Assembly (NCBI GenBank): GCA_905221615.1
Contig: CAJNDT010001324.1
Span: 310,001 to 374,000, forward strand
Length of the DNA: 64,000 bases
From: Symbiodinium sp. CCMP2592
Lineage: Eukaryota; Sar; Dinophyceae; Suessiales; Symbiodiniaceae
Direction of reading: 5' to 3'
The stretch's first letter is position 1. Each line of letters starts with the position of its first letter. The notes under the pieces were generated by a model. It had not been told where the DNA came from. It did not search any database and saw only the letters and a program-made list of their open reading frames with translations. A program made the position numbers and the translations under genes. Of the stretch, positions 12,790-61,245 are shown one piece after another.

Positions 12790-13189
12790 CGCGCGCGACA
12801 AAACACTGCCGTGCGGCCAGCCGCTTGAGCAGCCAGCCCGACACCCTGACCCGGCCCTTTGGATGCCTTTGCCGCAGCGAAGCTATCTACGAGAACTGCA
12901 AAACACACCCGGCAGCTCAAGAAAGCCGAGCAACCGTTCAAGCCCAAGGCAATGGTCCGCTACTGTAAGCCCAAGAAAGGGTGTCTGCCCACTCACAGCA
13001 CAGGCCTTCTGAGCCTTCTTGGATTCTGCAGCTTTGGCGGCCTGCACTTCATGCAAGCACATGACATGTGCAGGCAGTGCGTGCTAATGATCATTGACAA
13101 GTCAGACCCCGAAAAACATGCACGAGAATGTCACAATATGCCAGTAATTGCCAGTATAGACCCCAAACGGTGACAGGGCAGCACAAACG

Positions 13190-38298: not shown

Positions 38299-39600
38299 TC
38301 ACGGCGCCACATGCTGCGAATGGCTGGGGCCCAGGCCTCCAAGAACTGCACCGAGATCCCCAACAAAGCACCAGAAAGAGTAAGATGCAAGATTGTGCTC
38401 GCTCGGCACGTGCTTATCAACGTGGTGTGCCGTCAAGCCGTAGATCGTGCCGTTCCCCCAGAAGACCAGGAAGATGGCAATCGGGATGATGATGGCAATC
38501 GCAAGGGATTCCAGATAGAGCCCGAGAGCAATGCAGGCCATTGCCATGCCGAGAAAGACCAATCGTCGGAACAAGCTGGGCGTTGAAAGGTAGATCGCAA
38601 TTCGGCGGCTGATGGAGTCCCCGAGGAAGATGAAGACATAGGTAACAGCAAAGAATTGGCCCCACTTCATGAGGTGCTGATCACTCTTGGGATTGAAGAG
38701 GGGCACGTAGGGAGGATGGAACATGTAGAAGATGGCCGGCCAGTTCTCCATTGCGAAATGACTCAAGAACTGTGCCACAAAGAAGGGGGCCATTCCCGGC
38801 ATCCAGTGCCGAGCCTGGAGTAACGAGGCTGCGAAGTTCGCCGTCTTCAACTCCGTGTTGCCTTTGGGGGCCAAGCGCGTGAATAAGAAGAGCCCGATAG
38901 GCAGGCAGAAGAGGATGTACCAGTAGATGTAGACCATCTCCAAACCGAAGGAGGAAGCTGTGAGGCCGAGGATGTTGATGGTTGCGAAGCCTGCAGGAGC
39001 TCCCACAATGGCCCAGGCCTTCGTGGCCCTCCCCATGGGCGTGATGACGCTCAGGAAGGTGACTTCGAAAATCCCCAGGCCCAGGCCCGAAAGCATGTAG
39101 GCGATGAAAACCGACCCCACCCAGCTCCAGCCCAAGGTGAAAACGAGCAAGGTGGGGATTGTGATCCCCACAAACATGAAGCACATCGCGATGACAACTC
39201 GGGTCCAGGTTGTGAGGCGTGCGAAGACGACGTTATGCCCCAAGCGGGCGATCAGCTTGCCATAGTGGACTGCAACGGCCGCTTGTGTGAAGGCATGTGC
39301 CGCTGCAGTGCCGTCCGTGCTGATGCCCAGCCGGTGCTTGTAGGCCGATTGGAGAGGCCCCACCATCGAAGCGTAGCCCTGAAACATGCTGAGCATGACA
39401 AGCAGCATGAGCCGCACTGGTGGCTGCTCCTCCGAAGGCTTCTCCAAGTCCTCTGTGACATCGCTTTGCGACATTTCCAGGTCTACCTCAGCCTTCCCTG
39501 CCCCCGCCTGGCCGCCCTGGGCGAGCTGGCCGTCCAAATCATTCTGAACCTGCACTTCCTTCGCATCCACCACATCCATCTTTGCTGCGACTTCCGCCAT
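38299..39600 (-). CDS. Polytopic transporter, MFS/CLN3-like
   Basis: An uninterrupted 433-residue frame starts at the ATG at 39600. A hydrophilic N-terminus of about 65 residues (acidic, cytosolic in look) is followed by about ten hydrophobic segments. These include LMLLVMLSMFQGYASMVGPL, a second pair around 120-180 and a C-terminal group from about 340. The segment SGLGLGIFEVTFLSVITPMG resembles the CLN3/battenin signature after TM4. The C-terminal SEHNLASYSFWCFVGDLGAV matches the place where CLN3 and equilibrative nucleoside transporters have a final conserved helix. It is therefore probably a member of the major-facilitator fold in an endomembrane or the plasma membrane. Substrate unknown. 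The last ~12 residues may be intronic read-through. Confidence 0.6.
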   Translation of the reverse strand: MAEVAAKMDVVDAKEVQVQNDLDGQLAQGGQAGAGKAEVDLEMSQSDVTEDLEKPSEEQPPVRLMLLVMLSMFQGYASMVGPLQSAYKHRLGISTDGTAAAHAFTQAAVAVHYGKLIARLGHNVVFARLTTWTRVVIAMCFMFVGITIPTLLVFTLGWSWVGSVFIAYMLSGLGLGIFEVTFLSVITPMGRATKAWAIVGAPAGFATINILGLTASSFGLEMVYIYWYILFCLPIGLFLFTRLAPKGNTELKTANFAASLLQARHWMPGMAPFFVAQFLSHFAMENWPAIFYMFHPPYVPLFNPKSDQHLMKWGQFFAVTYVFIFLGDSISRRIAIYLSTPSLFRRLVFLGMAMACIALGLYLESLAIAIIIPIAIFLVFWGNGTIYGLTAHHVDKHVPSEHNLASYSFWCFVGDLGAVLGGLGPSHSQHVAP

Positions 39601-41535: not shown

Positions 41536-41540
41536 ACTTT
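41536..41540. repeat. Target-site duplication, left copy (ACTTT)
   Basis: ACTTT directly outside the LTR, repeated at 53849-53853. A 5-bp duplication is what copia-type integrases produce. Confidence 0.8.
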
Positions 41541-41705
41541 TTTGAAGCAGGAACTGGATTAGTGAGTGTCCAACCACACAACGAGCGCACTTTTTGGTCT
41601 GAGCCCAAGACGTCTGTCGTACAGGGTGCATTCAGATCTAACTCAAAAGACTACACTCGCATGAGGGCAGGTCAACACGGCGCTTCAAGACAGGGAAATT
41701 TCACA
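41541..41705 (-). repeat. 3' LTR (165 bp)
   Basis: On the element strand it begins TGTGAAATTTC and ends CTGCTTCAAA. It matches 53684-53848 at 164 of 165 positions. No clear TATA box is seen, in keeping with dinoflagellate promoters. Confidence 0.92.
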
Positions 41706-41713
41706 CCCGTCTT
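41706..41713 (-). promoter_or_regulatory. Candidate polypurine tract
   Basis: On the element strand AAGACGGG directly abuts the 3' LTR, the place where plus-strand priming occurs. It is short and holds one pyrimidine, so it is a weak candidate defined mainly by position. Confidence 0.4.
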
Positions 41714-41846
41714 ATCTGTAGTGTGACGTCCGAATCATGCTCGAATTATGACCGCTTTGGGCCAAGCCTACTCCACCGGGTTATACCGGGAGCTTGCGCA
41801 GTCAACCGAGCCGAGTGCGGCGACTCAAGGCTCCAGGCTGAGTTCT

Positions 41847-44800
41847 TCAATTGCGAAGCGGAGTGCTTTCGGTACTCTCGGTATTCTGTGCGGCTTGCGC
41901 GGGCACATCGAGCACCTGAACGAGATTGCGATCAATGCTGTGATTGATCAAAAGCGGTTTCATACTCTTAGTCAAACAATCCGCAAGTTGTAAATGCGTC
42001 GGTATCCATCTCAACTCGTCGCCGTAAGGATGGTACAAGGCGTGCGTTAGCTCGTCCTCTTCCCAAAGTCCTTGGCGGAGTCCAGACATCTCTATGGCAA
42101 GGCGTTTATCCTCGCATGATTTTGGAATCGACGCAGTCAAGTGATCCGAGAGGGACCTGCAGTCCGTATACTGCAGGTGGAACATCGATCTCTTGGCGAC
42201 TTCTTCCCAGTTCTGTGACCGGGGCAGTTTGCCGAGCAGTTCGAGCACTGCTGCTCGAATGCGGTCTCCATGCTCTATCGCATGTTGCAACGAGTAAGCC
42301 TCACACTGGAGTGTGGCGCGACAAACCCGTTTCATGGTGGACGAGGAAAACGAAATGAGGTGCATCTCATGCGTTGACGCGTTCTTGTCCACCGCCGACT
42401 GTGCGGAAGTGAGATAGTGGAAACGACCTCTCTGCGACTTATGGTTTGCCTCTCCTGCAAAGGAGGCGTCGCAAAACGTGACAATCGCCAGCTCCCCTGT
42501 ATTCCAGGGTAACTTAGCGCTGTACGTGATCGGCCTATCCGCATCTCCTAACGCCAGTGCTACTACGCGGTTTGCTTCACGGAGTGTATCCACCGTGGCT
42601 GTCGTAACACGCTGCTGCAGGGCATTCACCCTATAGGCAAGATCAGGTCTCGTGGCGCGAGCCACCCAAGCCAGCGATCCTATGACGGATCTCAACGCTG
42701 TGCGCTGGCCATTCGAGACTGGAGTCGTGCCCTTTTCAGACTTATGTATATCGATCGGGCGAATTGCACGCGTGTTGTCCCTACAGTTTATACTGATGGT
42801 CCCATCGGCGCTTTGCACATACTCGCGTCCGCAGAAACGGAACTTCTCAGTCTCTATGCGACCGATCTTAAACTTATCCAGCAGATTCTGGATAGCCGGC
42901 TCGCCTTCGGCGGTAGCAGCCCACAGGAAATCATCCACGTGGGTGCACAAGCAAGCACACAAACGACCACCTTCTCCTGTAATATAGTACAGGGCTGACA
43001 GAATTTGCGAGGCATTTAAGCCAAATTCGCGGGCACTCTCCTTTATGCGGAGATAAAGGTTCCGACCCGCGTCGGTCGTGCCATACACGGGTACTCGGGC
43101 AATCATATGCCCGGCTCGCTGAATCTCTGCATCGGGTACACCCTTAGGGTGTTTAGGAACCCGAAGAATGAGAAGGCGCTCAAGGGGTTTCCCTTGGAAG
43201 TATGCGTTCGTTATATCGGCTGCTTTGAGCCGCAGGGCCAATGAAACCGCCCATGAACACAGAAGGGCTATGCCTTCCGGCTCGGCCGTGGGGCTGTCTG
43301 CCCTGATATCCTCCTCATTCGAGATATGCTCGAAGTTTCCACATGCGACCAAGCGTGCTTTCCACTTGGGAGTGTATGCTGGCGTCCCCTTTAGGTGTTC
43401 ATTCTTATCGGTGAGGACCCATTTGGTGGGGATGCACACGTGGCCAGCCTTTGTAAGCTCCTTGAACTCCTTGTCTGTGCAAGGGACCACTGCGTTGAAT
43501 TCAGTGTACTTCTGCCATTCAGTTTTCATGGCAGCATCCAGCCCCAGCTGTACTTCGACAGGGGCTTTGTGGTAATCCAGGAGCGAGGCCATGTAGCCAG
43601 CATCGACATCAGAGCCGATGGCGTCTTCCCCATCTGGGGTGAGAGCAAAGGCCTTGGATTCCGCCGCTCGACTATCCAAGGGCTCAGCTGCTGGCACAGT
43701 CGTGCCAATCGCAGCTGTGTGCGATGCTGCTGCCAGTCCGTCGTCTTCCTCAGGAATGTAGTGACACGGATGGGCTTCTGGCAGTCCGTTAGCACGTATG
43801 TGCTCGGCAAGTTTCGAATGCTCGAGCCATATGTGCTGGGCGATATTTCGCCGATGGCATCGCCGCCAACTGGCCTCCGAACACAACAGAAGTATTCGGT
43901 GGAAGTCATCGTGGGCCTCGCTAACTATTCTAGCGATCGTACAGAGCCCTTGGTCTGTTTGCAGATTGGCTTCAATCCCGCCCCGATTCCTGTTGCCTAA
44001 CTCGGGGGCGTGACTGTACACAACCCCTTTTGCAAAGCATGTGGCGGAAAGCTCATCACAATTGTATTGTGGATGCCGAACGCTGTACGGATGGCTTCTG
44101 CAATCTACGATTTCCCTAATCCCGTACTCGTGGATGCGCTCTAGGAACGTCTCGATGGGAAGATCAGAGTGACCCATGGTGTATATCCCATCGCCTTTCC
44201 TGCCAAAGGTATTGGGCGCATCCCTATATATGGGGTAGCCTAAGTCCGACAAAAGCTGTATGTCATCTTTAGACAACTTGCCGAGATCACTCACCGTGTA
44301 TGCGGAGAGACTGTATCTTTCTCCTACAAACGGTGCGACCATGTGCACGTCCTTCGGGCGAAACTTAAGAACCTTGTTCTTAGTATCGTGGACGGTGCCA
44401 TACATTGTCGTGTTTTGAACACGCACGGGGGTTGTACCCGTGGCTTCTTCCACCCATAGACCGCCTCCACGATACTCGCCCACACCTATAGTGTAGTTAT
44501 GCGAGCCAGGAGTGTTCGCTAGGTCTCTATGGGCCTCTGCGCCTCTGTTGGTAAGCTGAACGCTACTCCACTGTGGGAGGTGATGACCGGCTTGCATACT
44601 GTGATGCAAGATGTAGTGGTTGAGGTACATGGCAAACGACGGTCTCTCGCGCGTTGGTCCAGAAACTCCAACAAGACCACCGTGCCGATATACTCCCACC
44701 GCGAGGGCTATGCACCCGGGATCTCCATCATCTAGGAGCGGGCGCGTGTAAGCCTCGCGTCGGTCGCGGTCATAGGCACGAAGGAGGGCCAGACACTCAT

Positions 44801-46865
44801 CCGGGGAAAAACCCTGAGTATCTATCAGGCCTTTTGCCATGATCTCTACTTGATCAATCTCTTCCGCAACTAGTGCATCATCACGGCCTCCTACTGGCGA
44901 TCGCGACCGGGCGGTTTCGCCCGTCTTATCTTTGGCGCGAAACCTTGCAGGCGTGGATGGCGCTGGCATCGGTGTGCCGGGCATCATCGCTGGCGTCGAT
45001 GGTGCTGGCATAGGCACATCGTGCGCGACTGCCGGTGTAAGCGGGGCAGCTGCAGCCACTGGACGTGGCGTCGCTGGTGCTGTGACCGGGTCTGCTACGC
45101 GCTCATCCTGGAACCTTTGTTCCGGTCCATGAACAATGGCTTCCGGAAGCACTGGTTCTCCTGCCAAAACGCGATGCGCTGCAACTTCAATTTCATCAGC
45201 CGGGCGCATCTTCCTAGCGTTCACAAGTACAGGGATATTCTCGTGTAATACCCAGTACGCATTCTCTGCCTCACGTCCTATGACGCGGCTAACCGTGGAC
45301 CACACGACACCTGGGCTGCCAGGGACGTTATCCCGACGGTAAATAACTAAATCACCAACCTTATAGTCAGTGTCTAGAGGGGCTGCATTACGCTGTAACG
45401 CTTTGGCCACTTTGCGGGAAGTCTCTAAGTGAACAAAGGCCTTTTTGGCTTCCTGCCGTGCTCTGTGCCGAATGTAGTATACACTCGTCTCATCATACTT
45501 GGTGAACAATGTACCAAGGCTTTCGGATTCATCTAGCACTGAACCCGGCGTTCGAGGCTGCTTTCCCAACACGTGTTGTGCCGGGCTAAACCCTTGGTGC
45601 CTACTAAGCTCGTTCTTAGTAGTAACACTTTCGGTAACGACCGCCTCCATCTCCTCGATATTCGAGGGTTGAGCCTCCTGCGCGACTTTCCTGATGATGG
45701 CCTTAGCAAGTCCACCATGGCGTTCAACTTTTCCAATAGTCTGCGGGCTCTCAAGAGGGGCGTTTTTATGGATTATACCATGCTGTGCCAAATACTCTGA
45801 AAATTCTCCCCTGAAGTGCGTCCCTCTGTCAGTGGGATGTCCAGCCCAGCTGACCCACCTGTCGATCAGGCATTTCACACACTGGCGGGCACTTGGGTTA
45901 CCACCCCCAGATTTCACGAGCACAACTTGCTGGAAGCTTGTTCCCATGTCAACTATATTGACAGCAGTATAGCGATTTCCATAGAAGTCTTTGACCTCTA
46001 GCGCATCCATACCTATCGTATGGTTGAACTCCTTAGGGAATACACTATCGCCTGCGACAGGGTGATGCCTGGGCACTGGAGCTGTGTCCAGGCAGACCTT
46101 ACACTTGTAAAGTCCGGCAGCGGCGATGAAATCCTTGCTCGCCCGGGCCTGCTTCAGGACCTGAACCAGGACTGCGTTTGGCAGATGGCCAAACGATCGG
46201 TGCAGGCGCCTTATAGCTACCCGGACTCGTTGCGGTAACGATCTCCACGCCGCTCGGCGCTCTGCCTCTGTATTCGGCGTTCCGGGGAACGGGAATTGTT
46301 CCAAAATGAGGCGTTCTCTTTCCTCGGGCGTCAGTGCGCCACCGGCATCATCCACCCCATCAGGGGCACCTCGCTGAGGCATCTCAGCATCGGGCACCAG
46401 CTCTGCTTCGCTGATGTCCTCAGGATCTGTGTCCTGGGCGTCGCCGACAAAGCAAGTTCGGCTAAACGCGTTGATATAGTACTCCTCAGAAATGGTACGA
46501 CAAAGGTTCCAAAAGTCAGTACTATCCGTATCAACATAACTACGGGGTATATACCCGTAAGACTCTGACCATGCTTGGAAGGAGTCCAAAGCCTTTCCGA
46601 TCTCTGGGCCTATGCCTGAGATATGCATGTCTCCTCTCAAGGTAACAGTGTCCTCGAGCATTGGATAGCCGTTCGGGGTAACCAATATAACCGGAATGTT
46701 GAGGGTGTCAACTACACATTCAAGCTCCAAACACAACTCCTCTGTGGAAGTCTCAAACCTGGCAACCACGAGGCCCGGTGGCCCGTTCTGCCTCTCGTTG
46801 ATCACGCTCGCGAGGACCTGTGCCGAGGGTTCATGCAATCTAATCAGGTGATCAGCTTCTCGCAT
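41847..46865 (-). CDS. Retrotransposon ORF2: integrase, 2OG-oxygenase-like, DUF488, reverse transcriptase, RNase H
   Basis: 1672 residues from the first ATG (46865); the frame is open from 46907 and overlaps ORF1 by 56 nt. In order: an HHCC zinc finger (H222, H227, C255, C258); an integrase core with D287, D346, E381 (34 residues between the last two); an SH3-like end near 500-556; and a Pro/Ala linker. Next come a 2OG-Fe(II)-oxygenase-like domain (about 710-860; H779, D781, H841, R850) and a DUF488 domain (about 893-1015). Last come a copia RT (about 1100-1365; D1217 and the HVDD motif at 1309-1312) and RNase H (about 1455-1640; D1466, E1522, D1568, D1586) with the closing LADCLTKSM motif. 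It would be made by +1 frameshifting or reinitiation after ORF1. The two inserted domains are not part of ordinary copia polyproteins. No stop or frameshift interrupts it. Confidence 0.93.
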   Translation of the reverse strand: MREADHLIRLHEPSAQVLASVINERQNGPPGLVVARFETSTEELCLELECVVDTLNIPVILVTPNGYPMLEDTVTLRGDMHISGIGPEIGKALDSFQAWSESYGYIPRSYVDTDSTDFWNLCRTISEEYYINAFSRTCFVGDAQDTDPEDISEAELVPDAEMPQRGAPDGVDDAGGALTPEERERLILEQFPFPGTPNTEAERRAAWRSLPQRVRVAIRRLHRSFGHLPNAVLVQVLKQARASKDFIAAAGLYKCKVCLDTAPVPRHHPVAGDSVFPKEFNHTIGMDALEVKDFYGNRYTAVNIVDMGTSFQQVVLVKSGGGNPSARQCVKCLIDRWVSWAGHPTDRGTHFRGEFSEYLAQHGIIHKNAPLESPQTIGKVERHGGLAKAIIRKVAQEAQPSNIEEMEAVVTESVTTKNELSRHQGFSPAQHVLGKQPRTPGSVLDESESLGTLFTKYDETSVYYIRHRARQEAKKAFVHLETSRKVAKALQRNAAPLDTDYKVGDLVIYRRDNVPGSPGVVWSTVSRVIGREAENAYWVLHENIPVLVNARKMRPADEIEVAAHRVLAGEPVLPEAIVHGPEQRFQDERVADPVTAPATPRPVAAAAPLTPAVAHDVPMPAPSTPAMMPGTPMPAPSTPARFRAKDKTGETARSRSPVGGRDDALVAEEIDQVEIMAKGLIDTQGFSPDECLALLRAYDRDRREAYTRPLLDDGDPGCIALAVGVYRHGGLVGVSGPTRERPSFAMYLNHYILHHSMQAGHHLPQWSSVQLTNRGAEAHRDLANTPGSHNYTIGVGEYRGGGLWVEEATGTTPVRVQNTTMYGTVHDTKNKVLKFRPKDVHMVAPFVGERYSLSAYTVSDLGKLSKDDIQLLSDLGYPIYRDAPNTFGRKGDGIYTMGHSDLPIETFLERIHEYGIREIVDCRSHPYSVRHPQYNCDELSATCFAKGVVYSHAPELGNRNRGGIEANLQTDQGLCTIARIVSEAHDDFHRILLLCSEASWRRCHRRNIAQHIWLEHSKLAEHIRANGLPEAHPCHYIPEEDDGLAAASHTAAIGTTVPAAEPLDSRAAESKAFALTPDGEDAIGSDVDAGYMASLLDYHKAPVEVQLGLDAAMKTEWQKYTEFNAVVPCTDKEFKELTKAGHVCIPTKWVLTDKNEHLKGTPAYTPKWKARLVACGNFEHISNEEDIRADSPTAEPEGIALLCSWAVSLALRLKAADITNAYFQGKPLERLLILRVPKHPKGVPDAEIQRAGHMIARVPVYGTTDAGRNLYLRIKESAREFGLNASQILSALYYITGEGGRLCACLCTHVDDFLWAATAEGEPAIQNLLDKFKIGRIETEKFRFCGREYVQSADGTISINCRDNTRAIRPIDIHKSEKGTTPVSNGQRTALRSVIGSLAWVARATRPDLAYRVNALQQRVTTATVDTLREANRVVALALGDADRPITYSAKLPWNTGELAIVTFCDASFAGEANHKSQRGRFHYLTSAQSAVDKNASTHEMHLISFSSSTMKRVCRATLQCEAYSLQHAIEHGDRIRAAVLELLGKLPRSQNWEEVAKRSMFHLQYTDCRSLSDHLTASIPKSCEDKRLAIEMSGLRQGLWEEDELTHALYHPYGDELRWIPTHLQLADCLTKSMKPLLINHSIDRNLVQVLDVPAQAAQNTESTESTPLRN
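43821..44192 (-). other. DUF488 domain inside ORF2
   Basis: Residues about 893-1015 of ORF2 read like a bacterial DUF488 protein. They have the opening IYTMGHSDLPIETFLERI, the DCRSHPYSVRHPQYN loop, a VVYSHAPELGNR segment and the closing LLLCSEASWRRCHR motif. The conserved pieces (GHS at 898-900, D921/R923, CxE at 995-997, CHR at 1003-1005) are intact. The biochemical role of DUF488 is not established. Confidence 0.85.
44286..44738 (-). other. 2OG-Fe(II) dioxygenase-like domain inside ORF2
   Basis: Residues about 710-860 show the double-stranded beta-helix oxygenase pattern. There is an iron-binding HxD (HRDLAN, H779/D781), a glycine-rich strand IGVGEYRGGGLWVE, a distal His within PKDVHMVAPF (H841) and an Arg nine residues on (R850 in GERYSLSAYT) placed to hold 2-oxoglutarate. 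The HxD...GGxLWV...H...GxRYS layout is closest, by eye, to TET/JBP-like and prolyl-hydroxylase-like members. Substrate unknown. Confidence 0.7.
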
Positions 46866-49800
46866 GGCAGCGTTGTACACGATTGCCTTTAAGACTTTCG
46901 TCTCCCGCTACCATTTCGGTAAGGCTTGAGGTGAGGTACTTGGACTGGGCCTTGCTAAGCTTCTTTAAGCTAGCGGCTGAGGGCCCATAGGCTGCGCTGC
47001 TACTGTGGGGCAGGTCTTCGGGAGGATCAGGGCTTGGAAAAGAAATCTGGCTGGCTTGTCCTACCCACTCCCCACTGCAGACGGCCATGTATGCTTCGCG
47101 CTCTGCTCCGTCCTCATCCATGGGTGAAACTTCACCCTCCGGGGCTGTGCCCGGGCCGGCAGAGGTGGCGATGCGCGAAGCCCGCGGGTCTGTGCCCGGG
47201 ATGTACACTGCACTCAAGGCATCTGTGTCCTCGATCTGGTGGGGCACTGTGGCCGCGTCGAACGCCAAGGGAAACACCCAAAGCGCGACGTACGCCCCAT
47301 CCTCCGACGGTTCTTGCGTCGGGCATGCTTGCTCGGCTCCACCGGTTTCGGTGGGCAGCTTCTCGGAGTCTGACCCCGGCGGAAAGCATGCGCCTTCATA
47401 CGTCCAGCTGGAGCCGTCGGCGGGATCCAGATGGGAAAACAAGTATCCTATGGGATCTATGTCCCGTAGCTTGCCCGTCGGCTTATACGAACGGCCTGTG
47501 TGGCGGGTGACCACTGTGCACTTTATGTTGTGCCGCTCGCTGAGTTCGTGGTGATTTTTATCACCAGCCCAGAAACGTCTCGGTGCATATGGACCGATCC
47601 AACACGCTGGCGCCTGCTTCTCGCGCATGACCTCATATAGGTCAGTCAGCACACCATCAGGAAAGTCCTGAAACACGATGCGCCTATTCCACCCGAAACC
47701 TGTGTCGGGGCTAAGTGCGATGGCACCAACGTCGATGGCCAGGATCTTCTCGTCGATTTCGACGAGCTTGCCTTGCCCTGGGGGCTTCGGAAACTGACGA
47801 CGGAATTCTGCCCATTCCGCGTCGTTCCACTCGTCCGACGGCCTATCGCCGTGGAAATACCACCATGACTCTCTGGCCGTCATGGGGCGGTGAGGATTCT
47901 CACGCTCTGGAAACCTATTGTAACCAGCACTGCCTCGGAAGCGCGGTGGCTCCGGCGGCTCAGGCGGGCGCCTGCTGCCGAGGTTGCTCCTGGGTCCCGG
48001 TGGATCCCAGTCTCCCGCACCTGTGCCGTCGTCGTACTCGACCTCATCATACACGCTGTGCGGTGCCGCCTTGCCTTTGCCCTTGCCTTTGTCGGGCTCG
48101 ACATCCACCTCCGGCCGTGCAGTGGGGCGAGGATTCGTGCGGTCACGCTCGGGAGCTGTGTCCCGGCCTGCAGCACGAATGCGTTCTGGCTCGGGAACTG
48201 TGTCCCGATCCGCACGGTCACCTGGGTCGCGGACGCGACCCCAACGGGAGGTGCGCTGGCGCGTCGGAGCCTCGGACCTATCCCGAGGTCTGGAGTCCAT
48301 CCGCCGTCTCTCACGGGTACGGTCACGGCGATGACCCCTGCTCGAGGAGGAACTATCCCTCCGCCTGCGACGCGATCGGGAGCGGCGAGTAAGCCTCTTG
48401 AGCTCCGCCTCGGCCCTATCGGCTCGAGTCTCCGCGTCTTCTGCCCTCTCACGCATGTCCTGCAGCCGATCATACGCATTATCGCGCTGCCGCTTCACGT
48501 TGCTGAGGGCTTCTCTCAAGTCACTTATAGTGCTTTCCTGGCAGCGATTCGCATCAGTGAGGTCGTGGACCTCAGCCTCGAGCTTGCGAATCCGAGCCGA
48601 CGACCCTGTCGGCGTCGCTGCGCGGTCCTGTGCTCCACCGGACTTTGCCGGCGGCGGTGCTGGCGTAGCCTTCGGCCTCTCTATGGGGGCCGCTCCGCCC
48701 TTGGCTGACGCACCTACGCTAGAACTAGCAGGGTTAGGACCCGAGCTAAAAGTAACCGAAGGTAGGCGTCCTCCAGGGGCTGTGCCCTGTGCGCGGTTCA
48801 TCGCCGCAGTGAGCGAGTTCGGGTCGTACTTTGCCACATACGATGTATGTGTCTTGCCGACCAGCCCCATGCGTTGTGCAGCCTGATACGCGGTTTCGCC
48901 TGCCATGGGAGGCCTATCAAGGGGGCCTACCCCTGTCACCGGTGCCGGTATGCGGCCCTCTGCAAGCATCTGCGCATGAAACCGCTCAGCATATGTAGGC
49001 TGATCATCGGGGCGTGCACACTGCGGCTCCACGACAAGGATGCACTCGTTATCCTCTGGTCCGTCTGTGCGGACAGCGTCGACGAAGCACCTCGTGAGCT
49101 CCTGGACCTCCTGGGCTATGCCAGGGGCGCGGTGCAAACACTTGGGACACTGTCCTTTGCACGCCTTGCTGCCCATGAAGGGCCAACTATTCGCTGCACT
49201 CATATGAGTGAGGCTGACGGAGCAGTCTGGCACGAGCTCCAAAAGCGTTGCATGGGCAAGGATGCCCGCCGCAACAGATCTATGTCTGTTGGCTTTGCAA
49301 ACCACATGCACGGCAATGGACCTAATCCCAGCGTCCTTAGCGTCAAGGACGTTCGCCACGATGTGCCTGACGTGGGCGATCAGGTTGGGGTGGTCCGCGT
49401 GCTCCCGAATTATATCGGGGTTCGACCCAACATGCTTTGTGCGGTCGCGCTGTTCGTCGTTGCGCTGTTGGGCTTCTGCTGGCGTCAGATCGTCTTTCCG
49501 ATCGTCCCTGAGCCACACCATGTCCAACATCACTAGCATATAGCTAGTGGCACTCGCATACGTCGTGAGCGCATGCGTTTCCATCTCTTCGTGCTGTGCG
49601 AAGAGCTCGGCCGCCGTCCACTTCCCTCTGACGCGTTGCAGCCAGGCATGGTGCTCATAGCCCCAGGTAAAAACATCAATAATGATGTCCGGGTTCGCTG
49701 TGTCCCCCGCATAGTATGGTAGCAAGGCCAAATCCGGATTATACACGGTTGCTGGAAGAGGAGTGTCGAGCTCCGGACCATGGGGTCCTCCACCTGCCAT

Positions 49801-52800
49801 TATAACCAGGGGCCTGTTGTGCGGATCCTTCTTCACAACCGCATCGAACTCGGCAAGCTCGCGGTGCCCTCGCGCGATCTCCTTCGGGTGCACTGTGGCA
49901 CGAGCTGCCGGCGGGTTCCCTGGGCTATCCCCAGGCCTAGCCTTCTCTGTGGGAGGCGCTTTCTTCGGCAAGCCACTCCCTGGCGGCGCCTTAGGTGCAG
50001 GCGCGGAAAAGGCAGGAGTGATCACCGGTGCGGCACTGTGGCCGACCGCAGGCGAAGTCGCCATGGCACTGTGGCCAGGCTCCGGCGCTGCTGAAATCTT
50101 CGGTGCAGCCTTTGCCGTCGGGGGCGCCTTCTTAGGCAGCTGCCCCTCCTCTGCGGCCATCGCGGCGGGCTCCGTGTCTCCTACGGACGTGCCTACCATA
50201 CAATGATTCGGGAACGCTACGCTTATACGTCGCTTAGTGTTGTTGCGATTCTCAGCTGTCGTTGTGAAGCTGTGACCGTGGCCTACGCCTAAAGTGCTAT
50301 GACCATGGCCTGCATCTACAGTACTGTGACTGCGACTTGTTGCCACTGCGTCATCTGCCGCTGTTGCATCTCGAGGGGTGCTCACAGACTCTGAGTGAGC
50401 TAAGGTGGCGGCGGCGGCAGACCTAAATATAGGAACTGGCGGTGAGGGAATTTGGAAGCTTCTTATGAGACGGGGTTGTTTCACCTGAACCAAACCTTCT
50501 GTTATGTTTATGCATAACAGCCCTGAGTCATGTGTCCGACACAGCTTGATCCTAATGATGCTATCCTCAGAAGGAAGTCGAACACCACACTCGCCAAACC
50601 GAAGATCCTTGGTTATACCAAGTTGGGCCTGGGCGTAAAGGGACAAAAGAAGAGGGGCTGTACCCTTAATCTCGTGAGAATCAAGGACGCCCGGAACTCT
50701 CAAGTCCTGCTCCAATCCCATTATAGAGAAAGGTATGGTCCTGCTACCCAGGGTTTCGGTAGCACCGCTAAGACCCTTGAAGGTACGATTGCCCTCAGGT
50801 TTAAACCTCGTGCTGTAACCGAAGTTCGCAAGTTTCCCCGCCGCGTTTGCTATCCAATCGCTACCGTGAACAGTCGAGTTACAGCCCTCATCCAACACGG
50901 CGTATACGTGCTTATCCTCGTAGATATTTACTACGGGCAAATCAACCAAAGCCGGATGGATATCTGTGACCCCCTCAGTGAAAGCCACGAAGGCGTGCCT
51001 CGTCGCGGAGGCCCTCGAGGAGCGCGATCTCGCCGACGCCACTTCCCAACTGTTGTTGGTCGATGGCGCAGAGTGATCATCTAAGGCCTCTTGCAGATAT
51101 GCGAGAAGGTCACCGCGAGATATCACGGGCTCGGTTACGAAGTGACCCTCTATGGTCTCTTGAAACTGGGCAATAGCCGGAACTACTACCTCTACGGGAA
51201 GGCTATCCCCCGTGCTGCCGACTATGCTGCGCAGAAGGTCGAAGTCCAGGGTATTGGACTCCCGCAGCACTGTGGCTGCGTCATCCCTAGCCTTTCGCTC
51301 GGTCTGCGGCTGCTCATCTAGAAGCATCCCACAAAGCTTGCACTTAATGCGGGAGGTCTTCCTACTGCTACCCGACCTCTCGGTGGAGGTGTGGGGGCAT
51401 GTGGCCTGGTCTATGACAGGCTTCTCTTTCTTCGTCTTGGTGACGGTGCCGCATTTCTTACAGGTCCGCATGTCTATGTATGCGTTACTCCCCGACTTGT
51501 TGAACTCCTTGCAACCTCCCCGGCATTTCCGGGGGCCTTCGCTGGACGAAGCAGCTGACGCGGCGAGGCGAACCTCGGGCTGAAAGGGTTCAGGCGGGGG
51601 CTCCTGGCTGAGAGGGACATCCCTTCTCGTGATGCTAATGGGGTTGTCATCACGCACATCAAAGTACTCCGTGACCCAATCCAAGAAATCGGCCAAATTT
51701 ATGGATGGGCACTTCTGCGTGCGTCCCCAAAGAACATATCCAGGAAACGTATACAAGACACGCTCATAAGTCAGACCCTTATGCTGACCAAAAGAGAAAA
51801 CGCGATCGGAACCCTCAGGCGGGCTGTCACGCATGATCCTAGCGGCGGCTGTGCGCCGAAGCTGCGGTGAGAAGAGGGTTTCACTGCCGCGGCCTTTGCC
51901 GGTATTGATCCTCGAGGGAGTCAGCTCAAGGTTGGCTGGGTAACCCTCGAGCCTACCAGCGCTCGCATTCGACAGGTGAACACACTCTGTGTCATCCTCC
52001 TCCACTGCGGCGAAATACGCCTGGGGCTTCGGCGCCGCCGGCTTTGCGGCTGCGTTGGCAGTTCCCCCAGACTGTGCTGGGGTTGTGGTGCCCTTGGGGC
52101 CATTGCCCTTACCGCTAAACTTGCAGGCAGCATCTCCGGCCCAATGGCCGATCACACCGCACTTCAGGCACCTACTCTTTGCCTTAAGCTCTGCCAACTT
52201 GGCCTTACGATCAGCAATAGTCAAATTGCTACGCACGACCTTCCCTCCGGATTTTCCGGAGGACTTGCCCTTGTTCTTCCCTTTTCCTTTTCCTTTCGCC
52301 TGGGCAAAGGCGGTCTGTGCCGCGTACGCAAGCTGAACTGACTCGGCATAGGAATCATCCAAATCGTCAATCTCAGCTTCATATGCCACTGCCGTATAGG
52401 CGTTGAGTTGCAATGCTAGGTCTTCATCATCAATCCATTCATCCGCATCATCTCCCCCAGACGCTGTGGCCTGGTATGCTTCCTCGCCGTAGCCGTCACC
52501 GTAGCCTTCCGCGGATTCCTGCTGTTCCTGGTGACCATACTCTGCGGCACTACCATCATACCCCATGTAACCAAACTTAGGGTATTGTGGCTTAGCGTCG
52601 AAACGTCTCCAGGTCTTACCTGGGCCACTAGGGTCCTTCTGGGTAAGAAGACGTTCCTTCATGTGCACCACTGAGTGATGCTGAACAAGGACGCGTGCGT
52701 ACTCATCCACGGTGTGTACGCGGGCGGCGGTCTTGACCATTAGCTGTTCGTTCCTTTCCAACCCTGAAAGCTCAACAAGGAGGTTAGCCCTCATTGCTTC

Positions 52801-53565
52801 AGAAAGGCGGATATCAGGATCTAGCTCACGCAAGGTCGACCACCACCGCTTTCGGCGGGCTATGTAAGACAACATAGGCTCGCCGGGTTGTTTTGCGAGT
52901 GGGCCCGTCAGGAGCTGTCCCTGACGGAAAAGTTCGGAAGCCTCTTCAGATTGAAGAGGGAAAGCTTGCCTCCTGATTTCTTCTATCAGGTAGTCGACGC
53001 CATCATGGCGAAGCAGACGTTCCAGGCCGACGTCGCGAGCAATGCAAAAGGCGTCTCCTCGGAGACCCTCCAAAATCTTGCTAACGCATTCGCTCATATC
53101 AAGCGACTCGTCCTTAATGTCTTGCAAGGTGTACACCGCCGGATCTGTGTCCGGCTCCTGCTCATCGTCGCCCGCCACTTGGCTGGGGTGCGACGGCAAC
53201 GACTCCGCATCCTCATCTTCTGCCTCGGACGCGGGCTTAGTCCGTTTTGCGCTGGACGGACTGGCGGGTATACCGCTGCTTCCATCACCATCTGTGGGCG
53301 ATGCACTGGTCCCCTGACTTGCCCTGCCACGCCACTTCCTTGGTGACTCGCTCTTGGCCCTTGCCGACTCGGCAAATCGCAGGTCCTTAAGAGCCTCACG
53401 CCGCTGCTTCTCCTTATGTTGCAGCACACGGATCTGTGTCCGGAAGCACCAATCGTGGAAGCCAGCAGCCGTACCGTCGTATATGTACGAACCGCTTTTC
53501 GTTTCTGCAGGGCTCAGGTTCTGTGACCAGAGATTGGGCTGGTAACGCAAACCTGCCACGCTCAT
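46852..53565 (-). CDS. Retrotransposon ORF1: Gag, zinc knuckle, protease and accessory domains
   Basis: 2237 residues from the ATG at 53565. In order: a Gag capsid-like helical region (about 210-303, with FRQGQLLTGPLAKQPGEPML); a Gly/Lys-rich stretch (424-442); a zinc knuckle of CX2CX4HX6C form (C466, C469, H474, C481); a DUF3820-like motif (FGQHKG 592-597, PGYVLWG 608-614); and a Cys-rich zinc module (C681, C685, C702, C705, C723, H725, C742, C745). Next are a retropepsin-like protease with active site DEGC (D892) and a later LLLSLYAQAQLG, then a His/Gly and Pro/Ala linker. A RapZ-C/phosphatase-like domain follows (about 1251-1518). The end comprises a coiled coil (1657-1726), an RS/RD-rich tract (1727-1818) and a globular region I do not recognise (1933-2048). 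It is far longer than a usual copia Gag. The protease is in ORF1, not ORF2. It ends at TGA 46852. Confidence 0.9.
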   Translation of the reverse strand: MSVAGLRYQPNLWSQNLSPAETKSGSYIYDGTAAGFHDWCFRTQIRVLQHKEKQRREALKDLRFAESARAKSESPRKWRGRASQGTSASPTDGDGSSGIPASPSSAKRTKPASEAEDEDAESLPSHPSQVAGDDEQEPDTDPAVYTLQDIKDESLDMSECVSKILEGLRGDAFCIARDVGLERLLRHDGVDYLIEEIRRQAFPLQSEEASELFRQGQLLTGPLAKQPGEPMLSYIARRKRWWSTLRELDPDIRLSEAMRANLLVELSGLERNEQLMVKTAARVHTVDEYARVLVQHHSVVHMKERLLTQKDPSGPGKTWRRFDAKPQYPKFGYMGYDGSAAEYGHQEQQESAEGYGDGYGEEAYQATASGGDDADEWIDDEDLALQLNAYTAVAYEAEIDDLDDSYAESVQLAYAAQTAFAQAKGKGKGKNKGKSSGKSGGKVVRSNLTIADRKAKLAELKAKSRCLKCGVIGHWAGDAACKFSGKGNGPKGTTTPAQSGGTANAAAKPAAPKPQAYFAAVEEDDTECVHLSNASAGRLEGYPANLELTPSRINTGKGRGSETLFSPQLRRTAAARIMRDSPPEGSDRVFSFGQHKGLTYERVLYTFPGYVLWGRTQKCPSINLADFLDWVTEYFDVRDDNPISITRRDVPLSQEPPPEPFQPEVRLAASAASSSEGPRKCRGGCKEFNKSGSNAYIDMRTCKKCGTVTKTKKEKPVIDQATCPHTSTERSGSSRKTSRIKCKLCGMLLDEQPQTERKARDDAATVLRESNTLDFDLLRSIVGSTGDSLPVEVVVPAIAQFQETIEGHFVTEPVISRGDLLAYLQEALDDHSAPSTNNSWEVASARSRSSRASATRHAFVAFTEGVTDIHPALVDLPVVNIYEDKHVYAVLDEGCNSTVHGSDWIANAAGKLANFGYSTRFKPEGNRTFKGLSGATETLGSRTIPFSIMGLEQDLRVPGVLDSHEIKGTAPLLLSLYAQAQLGITKDLRFGECGVRLPSEDSIIRIKLCRTHDSGLLCINITEGLVQVKQPRLIRSFQIPSPPVPIFRSAAAATLAHSESVSTPRDATAADDAVATSRSHSTVDAGHGHSTLGVGHGHSFTTTAENRNNTKRRISVAFPNHCMVGTSVGDTEPAAMAAEEGQLPKKAPPTAKAAPKISAAPEPGHSAMATSPAVGHSAAPVITPAFSAPAPKAPPGSGLPKKAPPTEKARPGDSPGNPPAARATVHPKEIARGHRELAEFDAVVKKDPHNRPLVIMAGGGPHGPELDTPLPATVYNPDLALLPYYAGDTANPDIIIDVFTWGYEHHAWLQRVRGKWTAAELFAQHEEMETHALTTYASATSYMLVMLDMVWLRDDRKDDLTPAEAQQRNDEQRDRTKHVGSNPDIIREHADHPNLIAHVRHIVANVLDAKDAGIRSIAVHVVCKANRHRSVAAGILAHATLLELVPDCSVSLTHMSAANSWPFMGSKACKGQCPKCLHRAPGIAQEVQELTRCFVDAVRTDGPEDNECILVVEPQCARPDDQPTYAERFHAQMLAEGRIPAPVTGVGPLDRPPMAGETAYQAAQRMGLVGKTHTSYVAKYDPNSLTAAMNRAQGTAPGGRLPSVTFSSGPNPASSSVGASAKGGAAPIERPKATPAPPPAKSGGAQDRAATPTGSSARIRKLEAEVHDLTDANRCQESTISDLREALSNVKRQRDNAYDRLQDMRERAEDAETRADRAEAELKRLTRRSRSRRRRRDSSSSSRGHRRDRTRERRRMDSRPRDRSEAPTRQRTSRWGRVRDPGDRADRDTVPEPERIRAAGRDTAPERDRTNPRPTARPEVDVEPDKGKGKGKAAPHSVYDEVEYDDGTGAGDWDPPGPRSNLGSRRPPEPPEPPRFRGSAGYNRFPERENPHRPMTARESWWYFHGDRPSDEWNDAEWAEFRRQFPKPPGQGKLVEIDEKILAIDVGAIALSPDTGFGWNRRIVFQDFPDGVLTDLYEVMREKQAPACWIGPYAPRRFWAGDKNHHELSERHNIKCTVVTRHTGRSYKPTGKLRDIDPIGYLFSHLDPADGSSWTYEGACFPPGSDSEKLPTETGGAEQACPTQEPSEDGAYVALWVFPLAFDAATVPHQIEDTDALSAVYIPGTDPRASRIATSAGPGTAPEGEVSPMDEDGAEREAYMAVCSGEWVGQASQISFPSPDPPEDLPHSSSAAYGPSAASLKKLSKAQSKYLTSSLTEMVAGDESLKGNRVQRCHARS
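46887..46893 (-). promoter_or_regulatory. Candidate +1 frameshift site CTTAAAG
   Basis: In the 56-nt overlap ORF1 reads AGT CTT AAA GGC. A one-base forward slip from CTT to TTA enters the ORF2 frame (TTA AAG GCA). Ty1 uses CTT AGG C in the same way. The position, 40 nt before the ORF1 stop, is suitable. The alternative is reinitiation at the ATG at 46865. Confidence 0.4.
49012..49815 (-). other. RapZ-C/phosphatase-like domain inside ORF1
   Basis: Residues about 1251-1518 end a predicted beta strand with VHVVCKANRHRSVAAGIL. This fits both the RapZ C-terminal signature (C-x3-x-HRSV) and the CX5R(S/T) phosphate-binding loop of tyrosine phosphatases (C1423, R1429). A Cys/His cluster follows (C1469, C1473, C1476, H1478) and may bind zinc. 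No copia protein is expected to carry this. The function is not inferable beyond binding of a phosphate or nucleotide-like ligand. Confidence 0.6.
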
Positions 53566-53670
53566 GGCTTCAGATAGAAGGGGCCTTTGCGCCGCGACTA
53601 TCACTACTCTACCCAACGGACCCCGGACCACAGGCTCTACGGGGGTGAAACACTAGTGGTTGTCCTCACA

Positions 53671-53682
53671 GCTCCGCTACCA
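53671..53682 (-). promoter_or_regulatory. Primer binding site, initiator-tRNA-like
   Basis: On the element strand, one base after the 5' LTR, the sequence reads TGGTAGCGGAGC. TGGTA is the complement of the CCA end and discriminator region of eukaryotic initiator Met tRNA (Ty1 has TGGTAGCGCC). The host tRNA sequence is not available here to confirm the pairing. Confidence 0.7.
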
Positions 53683-53683
53683 G

Positions 53684-53848
53684 TTTGAAGCAGGAACTGG
53701 ATTAGTGAGTGTCCAACCACACAACGAGCGCACTTTTTGGTCTGAGCCCAAGACGTCTGTCGTACAGGGTGCATTCAGATCTAACTCAAAAGACTACACT
53801 CGCATGAGGGCAGGTCAACACGGCGCTTCAAGACAGCGAAATTTCACA
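53684..53848 (-). repeat. 5' LTR (165 bp)
   Basis: Matches the 3' LTR at 164 of 165 positions. A ~105-nt leader separates the primer site from the ORF1 ATG. Confidence 0.92.
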
Positions 53849-53853
53849 ACTTT
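53849..53853. repeat. Target-site duplication, right copy (ACTTT)
   Basis: ACTTT adjoining the 5' LTR, equal to 41536-41540. Confidence 0.8.
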
Positions 53854-58340: not shown

Positions 58341-61245
58341 TCATTGTGGCGTGGCGGCATCTGCGGGTGGGGGCGGTGGTGGGCTGCCGACCACGGCGGC
58401 AAGTTCCGCTGCCACGCTGGCATCGCCAGGCTGCACGGCCGCTTCTGCTGGTGCGGGTGCCGGCGGGAGGGCAGGCTCTGGCTGCACAGCCTCTGGTGCA
58501 GGTGTTGGCGGGAGGGCCTCTTGCGCTGCTGGCAAGGCTTCTAACCCGAGCCCCTCAGGCGGGGGTGGCACCGGCGGAGCCTCGCCAGGCGGTGCCTCGA
58601 TCGGACCAGGCAGAGCTCCGGCGGGGGCTCCCATCTGCAAGGCTTGTGAAGGATCGGCAGCCATCACCTTCAGCTAGAGTCTAGAGCATTGCGAGTTCCT
58701 GTTAGATGCTCGATCTTCGATGTCGCTCTGAGGGCCCGTCAGGTAAGCCAGCGGCGGCAGCGTCCTGGTCGACGACAGAAACCAACATGCACGTGCAGCA
58801 CAGCGCAACTCCCCTCTGCAGCACTCAGCATAAAGGCCTGGAAGCCCGCCGGTTGCTGAAGAAGCGTCTGTTGCTGCATCAGCGGCTGCTGCATCGCCAC
58901 AGATTGCTGCATCATTGCGGGTTGCAGGTACTGCTGCATGCCAGGCTGCAGCAATTGCTGCACGCCCGGTTGCTGCAGGGCGAACTGCTGCATGCCAGGC
59001 TGCACCGCGAACTGCTGCAGACCCGGCTGGACTGCGAATTGCTGCAGCTGCTGCACTCCCGGCTGCTGAATGGCGTATTGCTGCATGCCAGCCACGCCAT
59101 ACAAGCCCTGCTGCAGTCCCTGTTGGGGCACTGCCTGTACAGGCAAAGACTGCTGCAGGACATATCCGCCACCGGGCCTGAGCTTCTCGCAGCACATGCC
59201 TATACCATCCATTACCGTCCTGTGCTTGCGCTGAATCGGATGCGCTCCAATCTGAGCCCCTGGCAAAGCGGTGAGGGCTGGTTGCTGCACTTGTACGGCA
59301 TAGCCCGCGACCCCTTGCAAGGCACCTTCAGGGACATTACAGAACTCAAAGCACTCTTCTGGTTGGCGCCATCACGCGTTCGAGCTGCGGTGATCTCGCC
59401 TGCTGTCAGGCCAGTAACACCGTACGGGCTGTACCCCGCCGCAGCAACTGTGCCAGCTCCTGCATGCCGGAAATTCGACATGGCTTGGGGGCGTTGGCTG
59501 AGACAGCAGCTCGCAGAGCTGGGCTCGGGAAGCCGGGCAACCGGGCAACCCCGGGCAACCTTGAACCCCCATTTTGAGCCAAGGCTCCATTGGACACAGG
59601 GCCGTAGCCACGTTGGCCCAAGGGCTGGCTTCCGCCAGTGACATTCTTCGCGACCTGCCAAGAGCTGGAACGTGGGAGAGCGATGCGGATCTGAAGAAGC
59701 GGATTCCCAAGCGAAGTTGCGCCCCAGCGCACCATCTGTCCCGGCTTGGTCTCACTGGGCTGCACGTCGAAGCGGACCCAATCGCCTGCACAACTTGGAG
59801 GTCCGAGTTTCAACATAGCCCTGAACACGAAAGTTGTACTAAGTCTTCAGCGGAACCTTGCTGTGGCTGGGTGTTGATACACTCCTTGACGTGCAGCCAA
59901 ACATTCCTCAGCAACTCGGACACCAGCAACCCCTCAGATGGCTCACATGAAAGTCGATCTTTGATGGTACAAAGCCACGGCTGTCCGGGCAGATCAATGA
60001 AGCCGTAGCCCTTGGTGTCGTTCCAGGTCCGCCTTGGCTCTCAGTTTCACCAGAGACACCAAACACAAAGGTAGCTGCGCCCTGAGCAAACAGAGGTTAA
60101 GTTGTGGAGGGGGAGGTGGAAATAGAAGCAGAAGCCGAAGCTTACGGGCCAAGAAGCACTTTGCCGACGTTCGCGCCCGAGCCGGGAATCTCCGGAGCAG
60201 GCTCTGCTGGGAACTGCGGCATCTCCTCCGGCTCTGTGAAAAGACGGACCCAAGAAGCACGAGCCCCGCCGAAATTGTGACTGCAAGGCTACATCAAGAC
60301 TAGCTTCCCAGCATGCGTGCCTTGACGCCGGTGCTACCTTCCACGCTCTTGGCAACCTCTGGCAGAACAACAACATGCTGGAGACCTCGAACTCAAGTCG
60401 CAGGCTGCTTGCAACGCTGCGGCCATCTGCCCCGGCTTGGATTGGCTCGGCTCCATCGAGAAGGTAAGGACATCTCCAGGAACGGGCTGCTTGTCGTCTA
60501 TGCCTGCTCGTCATAGCTGCATGGCAGCTTCAGGCAGTGGTTAGTTACATTTAAGTGCTGTCGTTGTCGTCATGGACCATGGTTGCGATAGCAGAAGCAG
60601 CAGCAAGGTACTGAACAAAATCATGGAGAATCCTTCATCATCGTCGTCCAACCAATCGCAAACCACATGGCACCGAAAGTCATTCAAGCCGTTGATGCGG
60701 GTGCTCAGGAATGCAAATCATTCAGCGGTCTCGTCTCTAGTGGCGATGCATGTTTCCGGCTTCACGTTACCGTACAGACCTCATACTACTGTCGTTGCGA
60801 CTCCTGCTGACCGCCTCGGTTACTTGCGGCGGGGAACTCTCTCGCAGCTGAGCAGTAGCAAAAGGCTCAACAGACCAGAGCCGAACAATCATCACGAAAG
60901 AACACAGCAGCTCGACACTTGCTTTGTTCGTAACTCCAGCAACTGCAATACAGGCATGAGTCAAAGCTTTCTCTTGAACTGCTGGGACCCTTTTTTGCAT
61001 GACACGCTGTGGACCTAGTTCATTCCAAGTGTCAGTCTTTGATGTGGATGAAGACATCGGTACCTGTGCCAATGTCCTGAGCGAGTGCCACAGCAGGAAT
61101 GCCGTATTGGGCCCTGATTGCCAGCACATCGTTTTGGAAAGCTGGTAGCATCAAATTTCAGACTAGAGAGGATCAGACAGGCGGCGATGAACCCGAAGCC
61201 CTTGGCCCCGTTGAAGCTTTTCACTCTTCCCTGTGTTCGAGCCAT
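58341..61245 (-). CDS. Protein with two cold-shock domains and a Gln/Pro-rich tail
   Basis: An RNA/DNA-binding protein built from several short exons. Cold-shock domain 1: exon 61245-61186 (ATG start; RVKSFNGAKGFGFI with the RNP1 motif, apparently a GC donor), exon 61076-61035 after CGCTCAG (DIGTGTDVFIHIKD, RNP2) and an exon from about 60503 (DDKQPVPGDVLTFSMEPSQS). Domain 2: an exon near 60031-59850 (TWNDTKGYGFID, then NVWLHVKECINTQPQQ) and an exon from about 59790 (GDWVRFDVQPSETKPGQM). The second is joined across a 78-nt in-frame GT-AG intron (59732-59655) to VAKNVTGGSQPLG. Later exons give a Gln-rich tail of QQGLQQ/QPGVQQ units (58780-59320) and a Pro/Ala-rich last exon ending at 58341. Such proteins act as RNA chaperones. 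Exons between the two domains and in the tail are approximate. Confidence 0.72.

Follow-up and report, generated by a model that had tools for sequence, protein, structure and literature searches.

A copia-type retrotransposon of a dinoflagellate with a predicted TET/JBP-like oxygenase and a DUF488 domain in its polyprotein

Background

Orchid Ty3/Gypsy elements, a group of long terminal repeat (LTR) retrotransposons, carry an ALKBH5-like m6A RNA demethylase whose activity has been shown in vitro, and in the parts of that study at hand no gain of domains was seen in plant Copia elements (PMC9289625). A 2025 survey of fungi, in the sections available, found no retrotransposon among the carriers of TET/JBP dioxygenases (PMC12730594). 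In Symbiodinium, LINE and DIRS retrotransposons carry cytosine methyltransferases, and the Copia superfamily is given, in the accessible portion of the same paper, as being without any DNMT domain (PMC5890265); the words "dioxygenase" and "TET" have zero occurrences in its main text. Here we analyze a 64-kb stretch of the genome of Symbiodinium sp. CCMP2592 (contig CAJNDT010001324.1, positions 310,001 to 374,000; the whole stretch is hereafter the window), which contains on its minus strand, at 41541-53848, a copia-type LTR retrotransposon of roughly double the ordinary length, whose polyprotein includes enzyme-like domains. A preliminary description of the window had recognized this much correctly; the precedent of methyltransferase cargo that it invoked stands for dinoflagellate retrotransposons of the LINE and DIRS types only. 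We lean towards a reading in which the polyprotein holds a TET/JBP-like oxygenase between integrase and reverse transcriptase (RT), with a DUF488 domain adjacent and further conserved modules upstream, and in which the oxygenase would act on the nucleic acid of the element itself.

Repeats of the dinoflagellate Breviolum minutum are enriched in 5-hydroxymethyluracil (5-hmU), whose primary role, in the view of the authors, may be the modulation of repeats (PMC11071213). A review considers TET-family enzymes the likely makers of 5-hmU and, in the text at hand, names no dinoflagellate gene for them (PMC6723414). Among the open-access literature matches listed, a scope that leaves out most subscription papers and bioRxiv preprints, no report of a retrotransposon with a TET/JBP oxygenase was found.

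Results

An oxygenase domain between integrase and reverse transcriptase

The segments of the second open reading frame (ORF2) that bear on the central finding are as follows:

45201..46244, minus strand, integrase, residues 213-560 (IS481 model, 7.9e-13 over 213-431; relatives align to 587)
44223..44873, minus strand, predicted 2-oxoglutarate/Fe(II) (2OG) oxygenase domain, TET/JBP-like, residues 670-886, with H784xD786, H846 and R855
43830..44162, minus strand, DUF488 domain, residues 907-1017 (PF04343, E 2.7e-12)
42711..43580, minus strand, reverse transcriptase, residues 1101-1390 (RVT_2, E 1e-11)

The assignment of ORF2 residues 670-886 to the 2OG/Fe(II) oxygenases is well supported by predicted structure; the domain is probably of the nucleic-acid type, with TET/JBP as its closest likeness. 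Two Foldseek searches and a Z-ranked fold comparison with the best predicted model (pLDDT 83) gave CcTet, AlkB, NgTET1 and a phage JBP1/TET protein as the best fold matches, with TET2 also among them; the predicted model thus displays the double-stranded beta-helix of the TET type, with chains of the AlkB group tied. All 50 Foldseek rows shown belong to the AlkB/TET/FTO group, the known substrates of which are nucleic acids. The HxD...H metal triad and the downstream arginine are unchanged in all 17 copies that we fetched from the same genome, and together with the fold matches they bear out the 2OG-oxygenase-like label of the preliminary description. A PDB sequence search with the oxygenase profile returned 0 matches.

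Within this group, an oxygenase of the AlkB/ALKBH5 kind would strip methyl groups, for example m6A, from the RNA of the element and thereby stabilize or hide its transcript, in the manner of the orchid Ty3/Gypsy AlkB domain in vitro. The equal Z of ALKBH5 and NgTET1 speaks for this alternative and against our reading. Nevertheless, the top match of each of the two Foldseek searches is a TET/JBP protein, sequence identity in one and the same alignment list is 15-16% to NgTET1 against 5-7% to ALKBH5, and for the homologues of the domain Tet_JBP was the sole scoring Pfam model of its kind, with none of the AlkB type. We therefore regard an AlkB-like activity as possible and rather unlikely.

DUF488 and the modules upstream

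The first open reading frame (ORF1) of the window copy contains several further regions outside the retrotransposon core:

51646..51810, minus strand, GQHKG module, residues 608-662, ExoX-C-like by motif only (PF20600, below cut-off)
51292..51525, minus strand, Cys-rich zinc-ribbon-like module, residues 703-780 (zf-Mss51, E 0.00083, below cut-off)
49027..49839, minus strand, CX5R(S) region, residues 1265-1535, with the RapZ-C/Cys-phosphatase-like motif CKANRHRS at 49276-49299; family unproven
48232..48639, minus strand, coiled coil and Arg/Ser-rich stretch, residues about 1665-1800 (sequence; low-complexity matches to coiled-coil models)
46912..47991, minus strand, conserved C-terminal region of ORF1, residues 1881-2240, without significant Pfam match

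The DUF488 assignment, already made in the preliminary description, is certain at the level of sequence, the domain scoring 47.8 bits against a cut-off of 22.2, and the six residues tested are unchanged in 17 of 17 copies. DUF488 is a widespread domain, with matches also in six of 14 control genomes. No function for it was found among the literature matches listed; a PDB sequence search with a 150-residue slice covering it gave 0 matches and one with DUF488 itself a single match at E 2.8.

The other names proposed earlier did not survive the profile searches. The CX5R region scores 13.0-18.2 bits against RapZ-C (PF22740, cut-off 27), the GQHKG module 12.6-13.9 bits against ExoX-C (PF20600, cut-off 26.5), the ExoX-C and PF12843 matches taken together 12.6-14.6 bits (cut-offs 26.5 and 22), and the zinc module 19.9 bits against zf-Mss51 (cut-off 27). 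Accordingly, the names RapZ-C, phosphatase, DUF1579, ExoX-C/PF12843 and zinc-finger, all below cut-off, were dropped, and matches of the coiled stretch to SMC, tropomyosin and similar proteins were set aside as low-complexity. The CKANRHRS motif shows no change in any of the copies that extend across it (15-16 of 17). For the CX5R region the single-sequence structure model (pLDDT 41) was unusable, one protein search gave 990 candidates with none at E 0.001, a PDB sequence search gave one match only (E 1.6), and PHROGs and NCBIfam searches of the protein pieces yielded nothing convincing (AcylCoAsynMbcS against CX5R, 0.0064, 15.1 bits of a cut-off of 850). A GKHKG motif of similar look to that of the GQHKG module lies near the N-terminus of the copia relative P0003. 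The profile searches listed no methyltransferase family for ORF1 or ORF2, which places the element outside the DNMT-bearing kind.

It is conceivable that the accessory enzymes target free nucleotides or particle proteins, controlling nucleotide pools or modifying capsid or nucleoprotein, rather than nucleic acid: no nucleic-acid role of DUF488 or the CX5R motif was found in the material examined, and a common fold alone says nothing of function. That every one of the Foldseek rows shown falls among enzymes of nucleic acids argues against such targets, and we consider them improbable.

Copy family and reading frame

The remaining features describe a Ty1/copia element, with integrase upstream of RT and the order Gag-protease-integrase-RT-RNase H:

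53849..53853, no strand, target-site duplication, right copy, ACTTT
53684..53848, minus strand, 5' LTR, 165 bp (repeat comparison)
53671..53682, minus strand, candidate primer-binding site TGGTAGCGGAGC (sequence)
46852..53631, minus strand, ORF1 of the window copy, gag-protease-accessory part, 2,259 codons from GTG, 2,237 from ATG
52582..53565, minus strand, Gag region, residues 23-350 (aligns to P0007 at 3e-4)
52123..52170, minus strand, CCHC zinc knuckle, residues 488-503 (sequence; aligns to P0007 at 0.003)
50578..50946, minus strand, aspartic-protease-like region, residues 896-1018 (aligns to P0007 at 9e-6)
41847..46880, minus strand, ORF2 of the window copy, pol part, 1,677 codons from GTG, 1,672 from ATG; 3' part of one long frame in other copies
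41946..42710, minus strand, RNase H region, residues 1391-1645 (residues by motif; aligns to copia relatives)
41541..41705, minus strand, 3' LTR, 165 bp (repeat comparison)
41536..41540, no strand, target-site duplication, left copy, ACTTT

The LTRs form a direct repeat with one mismatch, and the ACTTT flanks constitute a 5-bp target duplication; both were verified as previously described. The putative primer site, likewise noted before, lies one base inside the 5' LTR and remains a candidate, and no tRNA genes were found in the 64-kb window. P0007, with which Gag, zinc knuckle and protease align, is a copia relative of 2,817 residues; the protease name comes from a DxG-type motif. The expected catalytic residues of integrase, RT and RNase H were located by motif, in agreement with the earlier account.

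The element belongs to a multi-copy family in this 1.098-Gb genome. Matching 5-bp duplications flank all 14 fetched copies with both LTRs complete, the LTR pairs being identical in 10 of them and differing at 1-2 positions in the other four; the three of 17 outside this count (C2768, C946 and C2635) have one LTR missing or cut in the fetched sequence. Since the LTR pairs are near-identical and the duplications match, the family has transposed recently, and the window element is a copy of a real, recently active, multi-copy Ty1/copia-type LTR retrotransposon.

In the window copy both frames (53631-46852 and 46880-41847) are open, as had been reported, but the two-ORF layout is not the intact form of the element. 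Searching the genome with ORF2, we scored 28 of 7,822 first-look candidates, all of 99-100% identity, and 12 of these 28 have a single open frame of 3,939-3,956 codons. Moreover, the piece at the 3' end of ORF1 has exactly one gap base relative to the window in 15 of the 17 fetched copies, the remaining two being longer with more gaps. These two observations rule out two ORFs as the intact layout and show that the element naturally yields a single polyprotein of about 3,940 residues, the two-ORF state being particular to the window copy, which is either split near the ORF1/ORF2 junction or mis-assembled there. Programmed frameshifting in the 46852-46907 overlap was dropped on finding the one-frame copies. 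A search with the CX5R region (142 of 304 candidates scored, 79-100% identity) found frames of 3,920-5,199 codons at 24 of the 142 matches and a stop inside the match at five; a DUF488 search (150 of 165 candidates scored) recovered, by eye, the same 24 contigs with those long frames.

Selection on the accessory domains

We counted distinct variants in the 17 copies relative to the window, leaving out codons that touch a gap; the copies come from the ORF2 protein matches with the 28 best scores, 10 of the 27 others being left out. Nonsynonymous/synonymous counts and the corresponding ratio (pN/pS) are:

Gag, 0/38, pN/pS 0.00
GQHKG module, 0/12, pN/pS 0.00
Zinc module, 3/4 (these variants only), pN/pS 0.21
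Protease, 3/21, pN/pS 0.04
CX5R region, 25/63, pN/pS 0.12
C-terminal region of ORF1, 13/33, pN/pS 0.12
Integrase, 7/62, pN/pS 0.03
2OG oxygenase, 7/36, pN/pS 0.06
DUF488, 4/29, pN/pS 0.04
RT, 2/49, pN/pS 0.01
RNase H, 4/44, pN/pS 0.03
Linkers, pN/pS 0.00 to 0.23

No stops were seen in the counted regions of the 17 copies, gap-touching codons excluded. These counts indicate that the oxygenase and DUF488 are kept intact by natural selection alongside the core enzymes. The suggestion that the extra coding sequence does nothing for the element, being neutral filler or host sequence picked up and left to drift, for which large parts of ORF1 without family match and the higher pN/pS in linkers and zinc module (up to 0.23) might be adduced, is very hard to credit in view of ratios of 0.00-0.12 in the GQHKG, 2OG, DUF488, CX5R and C-terminal regions against 1.6-11.7, wherever the ratio is defined, for the same variants read out of frame, of a nonsynonymous-to-synonymous divergence ratio (dN/dS) of 0.09-0.14 for CX5R at dS 0.74-1.01 against three older subfamily copies (L043-L045, picked for lack of stops), and of the 24 long-frame copies described above.

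Relatives and spread of the oxygenase

The window oxygenase is 26-32% identical to those of the copia-type Pol proteins P0003/P0004, P0005 and P0007, of which P0003 is named as coming from Symbiodinium microadriaticum. In RT trees the window element groups with P0007, P0003 and P0004 (support 0.979-1.0), and P0005 and C282 fall outside this group. The oxygenase precedes the integrase in P0003, P0004 and P0007 and follows it in the window; in P0005 it comes after a stretch judged integrase-like by eye and before RT. At C282, a place in the window's own genome, the oxygenase is followed in the same frame by RVT_2 (5e-19), with integrase not seen, so a second copia clade carries the oxygenase. 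Related elements thus exist; they differ in domain order, and neither DUF488 nor the CX5R region had a match in the five relatives compared. The domain has probably moved or been captured more than once; support in the oxygenase tree (0.5-0.83 at most inner nodes) is too weak to tell one capture from several. A Tet_JBP search of the window's genome, with 150 of 155 candidates scored, gave 93 matching places at E values up to 1; for 30 of these E is 0.01 or lower, the best score being 29.6 bits, and 13 of the 93 fall within open frames of 2,500 codons or more.

Two further carriers of the oxygenase deserve separate mention. L046 (G000:C485:46600-49600) is another multi-copy frame of this genome, with a Cys-rich stretch followed by the oxygenase (Tet_JBP 3.7e-6) and, directly after it, a stretch resembling a cytosine methyltransferase (phrog_363 E 0.26, sub-threshold), so that oxidizer and methylator may share one ORF. 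P0006, of 1,609 residues and without RVT_2 match, carries the oxygenase towards its N-terminus together with a methyltransferase stretch that is weak and looks degenerate (PF00145 E 0.23, TIGR00675 E 0.029); it is possibly a non-copia retroelement with both enzymes. Both methyltransferase calls are tentative, made from sequence motifs and sub-threshold matches.

Elsewhere in the window

An uninterrupted 433-codon frame at 38299-39600 (minus strand) is MFS transporter-like (MFS_1 1.5e-5, below cut-off), and a frame at 11719-12801 (minus strand) has PPR-repeat matches (PPR_2 3.2e-6, below cut-off). At 59602-59622 (plus strand), inside a frame without Pfam match, lies a single 21-mer that resembles the spliced leader at all but 3 positions (none in 100 shuffles), possibly the relic of a retroposed transcript. 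The spliced-leader 21-mer itself has 429 exact occurrences in the genome and its reversed control 0, which marks the host as a dinoflagellate. The segment 10001-11000, with extreme strand asymmetry (AT skew -0.79, GC skew -0.415) and overlapping open frames on both strands, is probably a low-complexity repeat.

Discussion

In the reading that we favor, the oxygenase would be made together with Pol, packaged with its products, and would hydroxylate bases of the element's nucleic acid, most likely 5-methylcytosine or thymine in the cDNA or the newly integrated DNA. Such hydroxylation could alter the marking or silencing of the element by the base-modification system of the host; a part for DUF488 and the CX5R module in that same step, with nucleotides or modified bases as their targets, is guesswork. 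The 5-hmU over repeats of Breviolum minutum would fit as the host context for such a mechanism.

Several observations weigh against this reading. The other four oxygenase models reached pLDDT 78 to 43, and the TM-scores of the fold matches are moderate (0.31-0.52). Pfam Tet_JBP (PF12851) has no match to the window domain, and none of its homologues, at 16.0-29.6 bits, passes the curated cut-off of 34.9, because of which we call the domain TET/JBP-like and not a TET/JBP member. In P0007 an arginine replaces the distal histidine and in C282 a lysine replaces the arginine, so some copies of the oxygenase elsewhere may be dead. The Tet_JBP search gave a sub-cut-off match in one control genome of the 14, that of E. 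coli, and chance may therefore account for the weakest of the 93 matches. The window copy is itself frame-broken, and many copies are broken, 16 of the 28 scored having no frame of at least 3,900 codons. Sampling by best ORF2 match biases nonsynonymous counts downwards, in core and accessory domains alike. Finally, the top enrichment of 5-hmU in Breviolum minutum is over Maverick elements, not Copia (PMC11071213).

A bolder proposition, which we put forward as a long shot, sees retroelement-borne TET/JBP-like oxygenases, numbering well over a hundred in the copia and other retroelements of one dinoflagellate genome, as a main source of the 5-hmU that replaces part of dinoflagellate thymine and lies preferentially on repeats; were it true, this base would at least have originated as a trait of mobile elements. 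A recurrent, selected TET/JBP-like domain in dinoflagellate retroelements provides concrete, expressible candidates for writers or erasers of base modifications on repeats, and the elements that bear it offer a natural comparison with the methyltransferase-bearing elements of the same lineage.

Set beside the described systems, the element shares with the copia Pol proteins P0003/P0004, P0005 and P0007 a homologous oxygenase domain, and differs from them in the position of that domain (before the integrase in P0003, P0004 and P0007) and in its DUF488 and CX5R regions. The Symbiodinium LINE and DIRS elements are likewise retrotransposons of dinoflagellates whose ORFs include an enzyme of DNA modification, there a methyltransferase and here, in a copia element, an oxygenase (PMC5890265). 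The fungal elements have in common with it a TET/JBP-type dioxygenase with the HxD...H triad, but, as far as the sections available go, their carriers are DNA transposons and Helitrons (PMC12730594). The nearest LTR precedent is the orchid Gypsy lineage, likewise an LTR retrotransposon with an extra 2OG/Fe(II) oxygenase of the nucleic-acid group; there the domain, of the AlkBH5 clade, occupies a separate extra ORF (PMC9289625), whereas in the copia element of the window it lies inside Pol, is TET/JBP-like and is accompanied by DUF488. LTR retrotransposons with accessory enzymes are known, and the element of the window, with a TET/JBP-like oxygenase in its copia Pol together with DUF488, adds to them.

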